Position numbers and translations under genes: made by a program. The notes beneath the pieces were generated by a model, which did no database searches, was not told where the DNA came from, and saw only the letters and a list, made by a program, of their open reading frames with translations. Shown one piece after another: positions 2,601 to 11,760 of a stretch of DNA of 22,675 nucleotides; position 1 is the first letter of the stretch; each line of letters starts with the position of its first letter. This stretch comes from a virus. The DNA lies in the IMG/VR virus record IMGVR_UViG_3300046642_000866, positions 1 to 22,675 of that record; one strand, given 5' to 3'.

Positions 2601-2622
2601 ACTGGGAAACGACTGGGAAACG
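2601..2622 (+). repeat. Tandem 11-bp repeats, candidate integrase arm-type sites (P arm)
   Basis: ACTGGGAAACG occurs twice in perfect tandem (2601-2611 and 2612-2622). A near-identical pair in the same orientation lies at 2819-2840, next to the integrase stop. Two clusters of short tandem sites flanking a core is the known layout of attP for lambda-type tyrosine integrases. Assignment as arm sites is inference. Confidence 0.5.
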
Positions 2623-2818
2623 ATCGTGCGTACTCATGCCTACACATGCGCACGGGTGCCTACCGATTCCAGGGAAAGCACCAGCTAGAGGCACTGACCT
2701 ACTTCAAACAGCCAGAACAGAGAAGCGGGCGCCAGTTCAGCTTGAAGAAGTCGTAGTACTTGATAGATCGAGGCCCTGAAGTCCCCTGACCTGCAAGACC
2801 CTTGATCCAGAGTCGCCG
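2623..2818. other. Candidate attP core region
   Basis: These 196 bases lie between the two tandem-repeat clusters and adjacent to the integrase gene, where the strand-exchange core of attP would be expected. On the minus strand, 2726-2764 reads IKYYDFFKLNWRP with nearly every third base G or C, although it is isolated between non-coding sequence; a host-gene-derived core is one explanation. No tRNA T-arm was seen. The core cannot be fixed without the matching attB or attL/attR. Confidence 0.3.
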
Positions 2819-2840
2819 AGTGGGAAACAACTGGGAAAGA
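2819..2840 (+). repeat. Tandem 11-bp repeats, candidate integrase arm-type sites (P' arm)
   Basis: AGTGGGAAACA (2819-2829) and ACTGGGAAAGA (2830-2840) are tandem copies of the same 11-bp unit seen at 2601-2622, in the same orientation, differing at one to three positions. The second copy ends 17 bases before the integrase stop codon. Confidence 0.5.
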
Positions 2841-2857: not shown

Positions 2858-4129
2858 CTACTTCTGCTCCTGGAGCCCGTCCCAGCGCTCCTGCAACGTC
2901 TTCATGATGGCAGCTTCCATCGGCACCGTCACGCTCGAATACGTTCCCTCGACACCCGGCACCTCATGGCCCATCCGCGACTCCACCGCGAACCGGCTGT
3001 GCCCGTCCTCGTCCAGCCACGCCTTCGCGCCATGCCGCACCAGATAGAGGCGCCGGCCCGCGAACGACGGAACCGCGGGGATGGCCGGCCGGTTCCACCT
3101 GGCCTGCTTCGCCTTGCGCTCCTCGGCGCCGTCCGCGATCGGGCGCCACCACCGGTAGTCAAAGTTCACCACACCGAGACTCCCGCCCTCGAGCGCAGGG
3201 AACACCCACGGCCTGTCGTGCGAGGCAAGCAGCTTCTCCAGCAGCTCCGCCAGGAACGGCGGTACGACCAGGTTCCGGTAGGACTCGTACTTCGGCGGCA
3301 TGAACGCGAGCTTGCCGTCCTTGTACTGCACCTGCCGCTCCACCCGGATGGCAGGCATGAGCCCGTCACCCTTGCCGTACCGCAGGAGGTCGTCTTCGTA
3401 GCGGTCGTGGTCGTCGGGGTTCGACCGCAGGTCCGTGCCGGGCCAGTTGGGATAGCAGTACTCGCGGGTCAGCCCGTACAGCTCAGCCGGCCGCATGCCG
3501 GTGCAGGCCATCGTCCAGATGAAGACGTAGCCCGAATCGCCCAGAAGCGTCCGGGCGTTGACCGCGAGCTGCTCCACAGCCGCGGCCGTCATGTCGGGCT
3601 TGCGTTCCTTCGGCTTGCGCGTGTACCGGCCGCGGCGTCTGGTGCGCTCCACCGGGGATGTCCTGATGAGTCGCGGCACCGCGTCGTCGAGGATCATGCC
3701 GAAGATGGTCATGACCTTCTTCGCCGTGTTCGGCTTGAGCACGCTGTTGACGTGCTTGCGGAAGGCACGGAAGGCCATCACGTCGATGTCGGCGACGGCA
3801 GCGTTGCGCTTCCTGAAGTACGGGCGGATGTGGGTCTCGATGATGGACCGGTAGTTCCGCTCCGTCAGATGCGCGTGGTCCAGGCCCGCAAGCCAGCTGT
3901 CGAGCCAGTCGGACATGAGGGTCGCGCCGTCTGCATTCTTCACGTGCGAGCCGTGGCGGATCTCGTAGATCTTGTCCTGGCCGTGCCGGAACGCCTCGTC
4001 CTCGTCGGTGAAACCGCCCTTGGACTCGAACCGTTTGCGGCCGTCGTCGTGATACTCGCCCGACCACCACTTCACACGGCAGGTACCGCCCCGCCACTCC
4101 GTATAGACGTCCGTCGCGCGTCTGGCCAT
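2858..4129 (-). CDS. int: Tyrosine-family site-specific integrase
   Basis: This 423-residue protein catalyses integration, and with a directionality factor excision, of the element. The order is an N-terminal arm-binding-like region (1-65), a SAM-like core-binding domain (about 68-155, 'LTERNYRSIIETHIRPYF') and a C-terminal catalytic domain. Catalytic residues visible are Arg213 in 'ACTGMRPAELYGL', Lys280 in 'MPPKYESYRNLVVPP', Arg365 in 'LYLVRHGAKAWL', His388 in 'RMGHEV' and the nucleophile Tyr397 in 'GTYSSVT'. The first His of the usual HxxR box is replaced, probably by Tyr362, a tolerated but less common variant. Length is normal for actinophage integrases. It is the last gene of a leftward group and ends at the tandem repeats proposed as attP arms. 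Confidence 0.95.
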   Translation of the reverse strand: MARRATDVYTEWRGGTCRVKWWSGEYHDDGRKRFESKGGFTDEDEAFRHGQDKIYEIRHGSHVKNADGATLMSDWLDSWLAGLDHAHLTERNYRSIIETHIRPYFRKRNAAVADIDVMAFRAFRKHVNSVLKPNTAKKVMTIFGMILDDAVPRLIRTSPVERTRRRGRYTRKPKERKPDMTAAAVEQLAVNARTLLGDSGYVFIWTMACTGMRPAELYGLTREYCYPNWPGTDLRSNPDDHDRYEDDLLRYGKGDGLMPAIRVERQVQYKDGKLAFMPPKYESYRNLVVPPFLAELLEKLLASHDRPWVFPALEGGSLGVVNFDYRWWRPIADGAEERKAKQARWNRPAIPAVPSFAGRRLYLVRHGAKAWLDEDGHSRFAVESRMGHEVPGVEGTYSSVTVPMEAAIMKTLQERWDGLQEQK

Positions 4130-4411: not shown

Positions 4412-4527
4412 GGCTCCCCCTTGAGTCGCCTGTAGGGAAGCCCCGAAGGACGTGTAACGACTGTGCCACGGATGAGTCCTGTTGGGACTGACTGGGACTG
4501 AAGTGATACGAGGAGTGATGTAACAAA

Positions 4528-5005: not shown

Positions 5006-5092
5006 GGGCTCATCTTGGCAGGACTGGCGGGGACCAGCCAGGACTGGGGGGCACTTAGGCCCAATCTCGACCCCAAATCAGCGCAGGTCGGT

Positions 5093-5165
5093 AGGCATCT
5101 AGAGGTTAGATGCCTTGATCGCCACCAACAGGTGCGTACAGATGCCTAGACAGGATGGGCATCTA
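5093..5165. promoter_or_regulatory. Immunity-type operator: four AGATGCC half-sites between divergent XRE genes
   Basis: Two inverted pairs are present: AGGCATCTA (5093-5101) with TAGATGCCT (5107-5115), a perfect 9-bp inverted repeat with 5-base spacer; and AGATGCC (5140-5146) with GGCATCT (5158-5164), 11-base spacer. The pair centres are 48 bases apart. A possible rightward -35, TTGATC (5115-5120), abuts the first pair, and a TATAGG -10-like hexamer (5164-5169) overlaps the last half-site and would give a nearly leaderless transcript for the ATG at 5182. Binding by the repressor and/or the Cro-like protein is inferred. Confidence 0.65.
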
Positions 5166-5181
5166 TAGGTAGGTTCTGTGC

Positions 5182-5428: not shown

Positions 5429-5704
5429 GTGCCCACGCAGCAGTCCCCCCGCGAACCCGTCGAGCCGAAGTACCTCGACGCCCCCTTCTTCAGCGTCCTG
5501 GAGACGGCGTGGCTCCTGAAGTGCAGCTACGACACCGTGCTCCGACTCATCAGGTCTAACCGGCTCGGCGCCAGCCAGGACCAAAAGGGCGGCGCCATCC
5601 GCGTCAGCCGCCAGGACATCGACGCCTACTACGCGGCCTCCCGCGTGACTCCGGCAACCCGGGGACGAACCGCTCGCCGCAAGCCGGCCCGCGCCGCCGC
5701 CTAA
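5429..5704 (+). CDS. Excisionase-like (HTH_17/AlpA-type) DNA-binding protein
   Basis: This 91-residue protein starts at GTG 5429, one base after the preceding stop, with AAAGGAAG 8-15 bases upstream. Residues 17-68 form a MerR/excisionase-like winged helix: 'PFFSVLETAWLLKCSYDTVL', 'RLIRSNRLGASQDQKGGAIR', 'VSRQDIDAYYAAS'. The C-terminus is basic (RGRTARRKPARAAA). Proteins of this family act as recombination directionality factors for tyrosine integrases or as regulators; being next to the Cro-like gene in the early operon, either use is possible. It is the natural Xis candidate for the integrase in this window. Confidence 0.75.
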   Translation: MPTQQSPREPVEPKYLDAPFFSVLETAWLLKCSYDTVLRLIRSNRLGASQDQKGGAIRVSRQDIDAYYAASRVTPATRGRTARRKPARAAA

Positions 5705-10918: not shown

Positions 10919-11760
10919 TGACCGATCCCCGACACGCCCACGACACCGACAACGGCCGCTACTACACGGACCCTGCCGGCGGCCCGGACCTCGTCTCCGT
11001 GACCAACGTTCTCGGCACCAGCGTCCACAAGCACGCGTTGATGCCGTGGGCCGTCAAGCTCACCGTCGAGTGGATCCTCGACCACCGCATGGAAGTCGCC
11101 CGGCGTGCCATCACGGACCGCGCGGCGCTCACCAAACAGCTCAAGCAGATCCACGTCGACGCGCGGGATACCGCATCCGACCTCGGCACCCGCATCCACA
11201 AGGCGGCAGAGCAGCGGCTTCTCGGGTCGCCGTTCGCAGTCGACCGCGAAGTCGGCCCCTACCTCGCCCAGTTGGAAGCGTTCCTCGGCTTCTGGGGCGT
11301 CGACATCGACAAGCACGTCGAAGCCGCCGAGATCACCTGCCTGCACCGCCGCCTCGGCTACGCCGGCACGGCGGACCTCATGATCTGGCTGCCCACCGGC
11401 GAAGGGCGTGAGCTCGAACTCTGGCTGATCGACTTCAAGACGTCGGCCACCCGCTCCGCGAAGTCGGTCTACCCGGAGAACACCCAGCAGCTGGCCGCCC
11501 TGCGCTACTGCGAGACCGTCCTGCTCCCGGATGACACCGAGCAGCCGATGCCGGAAATCCAGAAGACCGGCGTCCTCAACCTGCGGGCCAAGTCCCACGC
11601 TCTCGTCGAGATGCCCGCCGGGCGCGACGCCCACAAAGCCTTCCGCGGCGCCCTCGTCAACGCGCTGTGGCACCACGCCGCCCCCTCCTCGTATCCCGCC
11701 CTCCTCGCCCCCGACCAGCCTGTCCCGGCCCGGTGGCGCAACTTCCGAAAGGTGGCCTGA
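10918..11760 (+). CDS. Cas4/RecB-like PD-(D/E)XK nuclease
   Basis: This 280-residue protein starts at ATG 10918. The nuclease motifs are in order: 'GTRIHKAAE' with His94 (RecB/Cas4 motif I), 'GYAGTADLM' with Asp153, 'LWLIDFKTS' with Asp172 and Lys174 (the D...D-x-K core), and 'ENTQQLAALRYCE' (the Q-xxx-Y motif). No Fe-S cysteine set of true Cas4 is visible. Such phage proteins act as exonucleases in recombination or DNA-end processing. It is followed after 2 bases by the Gp3-like gene and then by a DnaQ-like exonuclease, so this is a DNA recombination/processing module. Confidence 0.85.
   Translation: MTDPRHAHDTDNGRYYTDPAGGPDLVSVTNVLGTSVHKHALMPWAVKLTVEWILDHRMEVARRAITDRAALTKQLKQIHVDARDTASDLGTRIHKAAEQRLLGSPFAVDREVGPYLAQLEAFLGFWGVDIDKHVEAAEITCLHRRLGYAGTADLMIWLPTGEGRELELWLIDFKTSATRSAKSVYPENTQQLAALRYCETVLLPDDTEQPMPEIQKTGVLNLRAKSHALVEMPAGRDAHKAFRGALVNALWHHAAPSSYPALLAPDQPVPARWRNFRKVA

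Follow-up and report, generated by a model that had tools for sequence, protein, structure and literature searches.

Paired 11-bp arm-type sites, an 18-bp core and a predicted excisionase array in the putative attP of an uncultured Streptomyces phage group

Two pairs of tandem 11-bp repeats stand on either side of a spacer next to a tyrosine integrase gene (int) in IMG/VR virus record IMGVR_UViG_3300046642_000866, raising the question of whether positions 2601-2840 form a phage attachment site (attP) and which proteins read the repeats. The window, here and below, is the whole stretch of DNA analysed, 22,675 nucleotides long. The original prediction took the four units for integrase arm sites, placed attP between their outer ends and held that, if this is a prophage, the window had not been split at att. 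The units lie exactly where it put them: ACTGGGAAACG occurs twice in perfect tandem, and two variants, AGTGGGAAACA (2819-2829) and ACTGGGAAAGA (2830-2840), each two mismatches from it, follow on the same strand, the last ending 17 bases (2841-2857) ahead of the int stop codon, as had been described. The "196-base core" was correct as a measure of the spacer (2623-2818), but the true core has 18 bp. On the evidence set out below, the interval is very probably the attP of a temperate Streptomyces phage, with paired sites that the integrase (Int) would bind, a short core and a putative excisionase array (Table 1).

Table 1. Features of the putative attP and the neighbouring integration and regulatory genes, in window coordinates
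Feature	Position	Strand	Basis or remark
Distal pair of arm-type 11-bp units in perfect tandem	2601-2611, 2612-2622	+	exact match to ACTGGGAAACG; at attL of lysogens; conserved in free relatives, with a pair distance of 206-229 bp
Four-unit 10-bp direct-repeat array, predicted excisionase (RDF) sites	2627-2666	-	lag-10 periodicity across 20 attPs
attP core, 18 bp, AGTACTACGACTTCTTCA (minus strand)	2743-2760	-	common to attB in MFS transporter gene
GCAGGTCA motif between int-proximal arms and core	2787-2794	-	at most 1 mismatch near the same place in most relatives
Int-proximal arm-type pair	2819-2829, 2830-2840	+	kept in free relatives; remains at attR in lysogens
Tyrosine integrase (int), 423 aa	2858-4129	-	PHROG 1 integrase, E 2e-30; catalytic residues; predicted fold
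rep, repressor-like regulator, 144 aa	4571-5005	-	phrog_6288/phrog_37057; syntenic in relatives
rep-cro intergenic region	5006-5181	.	two-unit copy of the attP array at 5133-5152
Cro-like HTH regulator, 81 aa	5182-5427	+	PHROG transcriptional regulators; syntenic in relatives
Candidate recombination directionality factor of the excisionase (Xis) family, 91 aa	5429-5704	+	TIGR01764, phrog_66, phrog_2907

Single 11-mers with at most two mismatches are not rare in the window (6 found, 4.4 expected), whereas the tandem-pair pattern has two matches against 0.02 expected, and none of 100 shuffles contained two. In first-order Markov simulations of the window, any perfect 11-bp tandem arose in 2 of 300 and a second similar pair within 400 bp in none of 300; it is thus the tandem arrangement that is improbable, not the single unit. 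The tandem-pattern search found no pair elsewhere in the window. Just beyond the distal arms, a GC-rich inverted repeat at 2505-2572, with A and T runs on its flanks (AAAAAGCCGGGCCCGGCTCCC and GGGAGTCGGGCCCGGCGCTTT), resembles a bidirectional terminator, and many relatives have a similar sequence there.

The integrase search matched 31 viral contigs and five Streptomyces genomes, with no match among 50,697 phage and 72,556 plasmid records, and no named phage relative was found at the DNA or protein level. Apart from the distant L030, all Int relatives whose DNA is readable on both sides have two tandem 11-bp pairs. The original prediction had named absence of the units near int in relatives as evidence against itself; they are present, in tandem pairs that flank the core, down to an Int identity of about 40-45%. 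On the int strand the consensus in relatives is (C/T)GTTTCCCA(C/G)T, with CCC unchanged in all 60 units tabulated. Of 24 attPs, which share descent and are hence non-independent, 14 have the pairs 218 bp apart, four 217, three 229, two 206 and one 223 (L036, off the 11-bp series), and the spacing still persists at an Int identity of only about 45%. These mostly 11-bp steps are consistent with helical phasing. In closer relatives the core starts 141-143 bp from the distal pair, and 11 extra bp, where present, fall on the int side. In L030, tandem CTGGGAGCAG-like pairs occur downstream of int (about 3400-3760) in the reverse of the orientation seen elsewhere, which would fit an attP flipped with respect to int.

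The location of the crossover is indicated by five Streptomyces lysogens, in which the int-proximal pair lies at attR and the other pair at attL, at the far end. Because the pairs are split in this way, the crossover falls between them, and because the window has both, it appears to hold an unsplit attP; the placing of attP, the unsplit state of the window and the role of the units as arm sites, with Int as their presumed reader, all gain support from the flanking position of the pairs in relatives and their separation in lysogens. In the S. tuirus lysogen the pairs are 88-90 kb apart, attL and attR have AGTACTACGACTTCTTCATCTA in common, and the element measures 89,763 bp; since it carries terminase, portal, head and tape-measure genes, it is a phage. 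An attB-derived query joining both flanks splits in this genome (1-152 at 665324 and 131-291 at 755217, with 22 bp duplicated) and is matched at full length in other Streptomyces genomes, with 96 and 92% identity in the best. The intact target gene encodes a 452-aa MFS transporter, whose reading frame ends directly after the core in the lysogen. The window core is identical to part of the 22-bp S. tuirus att repeat and to intact sites in other Streptomyces, and we infer that the window phage uses this MFS attB. A literature search on Streptomyces prophages in MFS genes returned nothing relevant. Two further observations concern the S. tuirus prophage: the split MFS gene is apparently frameshifted downstream of attR (L033, about 11366-11650), which may reflect decay or an assembly error, and another tyrosine integrase gene, about 6 kb in from the far end (L087, 5922-7013), possibly marks a nested element.

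The four further lysogens have the same pair split in four other protein-coding genes, with att repeats of 14-99 bp. As read from translations, not from a database, these are a sugar ABC permease in ADI96-02 (14 bp), the 3' end of a GH18-type chitinase gene in S. aculeolatus (53 bp), a uppP-like gene near its 3' end in S. iakyrus (99 bp) and the 5' end of a GlsB/YeaQ-like gene in S. spinosus (18 bp). Rejoining attL with attR in S. tuirus and in ADI96-02 gives two attPs, counted among the 24, whose pairs are once more 218 bp apart. The core of L015, L017 and L018 is an M1 aminopeptidase sequence (FPSNDHP), with matches of at most two mismatches in all 21 genomes searched, and that of L016 and L019, TTCCTGCAGAACAACTGAGG, had no convincing host site in 31 Streptomyces genomes. 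A tRNA target was considered and rejected: the window has no tRNA, and in each of the five lysogens the att repeat reads as coding for protein. By these sequence comparisons, the attP layout is unusually well preserved among relatives with different host target genes. In the isolate prophages L021, L022 and L025 (about 62% Int identity), GGATCCATNAACATGAAAGGG (GATATCCAT in L025) lies near the expected core, and L021 and L025 run on after it with ATGTTCATACCACTAGGGTCCCA. The arm-pattern search did not find the distal ends of prophage records G066-G076.

The integrase itself is, as judged from its sequence, of the heterobivalent (lambda) type, with predicted binding to both arm and core sites. 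The catalytic R, R, H and Y (R213, R365, H388 and Y397) are invariant in 20 relatives, the arm repeats are clustered, and a separate N-terminal domain is predicted (three strands and a helix, residues 8-58), followed by a SAM-like core-binding domain. The first position of the HxxR motif departs from the type, being a nearly invariant Tyr in the group (Y362); a His at this position is not strictly required and is known to vary. Pfam and NCBIfam alone miss the protein (Pfam hits to the window Int are all sub-threshold, though at E up to 1 Pfam recovers a SAM-like integrase domain from 19 of the 20 members), but PHROGs and the fold detect it. The best structural matches of the AlphaFold model (pLDDT 82.7, pTM 0.60) are lambda Int-DNA complexes at E 4e-7, with low TM-scores (0.3-0.4) that are taken to reflect domain placement.

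Between the core and the distal arms, adjoining the latter, a 40-bp direct-repeat array varies in sequence by phage and is constant in period. Across 20 attPs the lag-10 identity is 0.54 against 0.25 when shuffled (Z 18; lag 20, Z 15), and a control stretch has no 10-bp periodicity. Part of the array recurs between rep and cro: 5133-5152 equals 2627-2646 at 17 of 20 bases, and the PWM of the window's own array scores 21.3 bits in the rep-cro region against 5.1 when shuffled. In 14 of 16 phages an own-array profile finds tandem 10-bp matches in the phage's own rep-cro region at or below 5% of shuffles, the match being specific to lag 10 (far above lags 7-14); the mean score is 14.3 bits against a phage's own region and 9.6 against those of others (permutation p 1e-4). 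The intergenic regions of L034 and L011 have no array match. This four-unit array and its rep-cro recurrence, as read in the sequence, are new beyond the original prediction. The rep-cro region of the window also has GGCATCT palindromes, and a second, different 10-bp direct-repeat array (AGTCCTGGCTGGTCCCCGCCAGTCCTGCC; CAGTCCCAGTCAGTCCCAACAGG), kept in most relatives, occurs at 5006-5045 by the rep start and at about 4468-4493 upstream of int, possibly as repressor sites.

Our analysis favours the excisionase as the probable protein bound to the array at 2627-2666. The product of 5429-5704 scores 38.6 bits against TIGR01764 (excise; cutoff 28.8), and a homologous ORF lies upstream of int in 27 relatives. 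Binding by the Cro-like or the repressor protein instead is the less likely reading, though one to be taken seriously, as the array divergence covaries about equally with Xis (r 0.72), Cro (0.73) and Rep (0.75), and in partial Mantel tests Xis is preferred over Int but Cro and Rep fit as well. Against this stand the excisionase-family gene within the same module and the spacing of the direct repeats at att by one helical turn, a pattern typical of RDFs (PMC7498355).

As to the 11-bp units, they could be operators of a phage regulator that flank the att site by chance, with Int using other arm sites. The module's regulators do seem to use direct repeats, as in the different array at the rep start and before int, yet tandem pairs occur only at attP in the window, they flank the core whatever the target, and promoter logic leaves a fixed spacing of 206-229 bp with the core inside it unexplained. 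In L035, moreover, the second unit is aberrant (CGACACCCA) in each pair alike, which would follow from a single protein recognising the four units; the operator reading is very improbable. That the repeats are functionless and retained through common descent is scarcely credible. Close relatives do have much of the surrounding DNA in common, but despite strong divergence of the spacer and core sequences the units survive, and with them the tandem spacing of 11 bp, the distance between pairs and the 10-bp period.

With the 11-bp units as arm sites and the array as excisionase sites, the N-terminal domain of Int would bind both tandem pairs, and its core-binding and catalytic domains would bind the core and the matching attB near codon 31 of the host MFS gene. 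Strand exchange at the core would then insert the phage and interrupt the transporter gene, with the constant, roughly helix-phased pair distance setting the loop geometry of the intasome, presumably by reason of that phasing. Excision would be driven by an excisionase, most likely the product of 5429-5704, assembling on the array beside the distal pair; the same protein probably binds the rep-cro copies too, which would tie excision to the lysis/lysogeny switch.

A comparison of relatives suggests how the target may change. Between about -1300 and the first 100 bp of int, L002 shows mostly 88-100% identity to L016; this falls to 49-81% over the remaining int and the core and returns to 97-98% from the array outward, whereas the int of L002 is about 90% identical to that of the window. 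The int body, proximal arms and core therefore apparently moved as a block, while the array, distal arms, xis and switch stayed; by this alignment, int and core look like a targeting cassette that moves as one. L002 does not decide which protein binds the array, since rep, cro, xis and array all derive from the L016-like parent. Positions 6001-7500 of L002 look like a mosaic, with the int body and core of a window-like parent within an L016-like background. Tentatively, and with rather less assurance than for the attP itself, we propose for this uncultured Streptomyces phage group a constant scaffold of arm sites, excisionase array and switch, with int and core exchanged as a cassette that retargets the phage among at least six protein-coding genes, and with one excisionase reading the 10-bp array at both attP and switch.

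The paired-arm layout itself is already known from mycobacteriophages, paired 10-11-bp arm repeats having been described in clusters J and K (PMC3706429, PMC3203893); what is particular here is the targets and the shared array. In cluster J (Omega, BAKA; PMC3706429), attP likewise lies 3' of a tyrosine int, with the core about 100 bp from the int end and pairs of roughly 10-bp direct arm repeats on either side, but the units are 10-bp and TGCATAC-type, and a 44-bp core lies in a tRNA-Leu gene, whereas the window has 11-bp TTTCCCA-type units, an 18-bp core in a protein-coding gene and a 10-bp array beside the distal arms. The core of cluster K1 (CrimD; PMC3203893) is also flanked by two pairs of 11-bp arm-type repeats, but these pairs are mutually inverted and the core lies in a tmRNA gene, whereas all four units of the window have one orientation. 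Lambda, which supplies the top structural matches, has a short core flanked by arm sites; its Int is only about 15% identical to that of the window, which differs in its Tyr for the HxxR His and in arms arranged as two equal tandem pairs. For Apl of phage 186 (PMC7498355), the direct repeats at att and between early promoters are spaced 10-11 bp apart. Two Apl/Cox-type features occur here, with helical-turn direct repeats at att and the same sites between early promoters in 14 of 16 phages; the dual use is a prediction for the window, whose candidate, likened to Apl by site layout, is in contrast the second early gene, after cro.

An exact attP, a core and a likely host target are thus given for a Streptomyces phage group lacking an integrase match in the phage and plasmid records searched. 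With at least five protein-coding targets and integrases that have one arm code, the group offers a natural series for how target choice changes, and it could be a source of vectors that integrate at new sites in Streptomyces. In an actinophage, the shared 10-bp array opens the way to a direct test of whether excision is coupled to the lysis/lysogeny switch.
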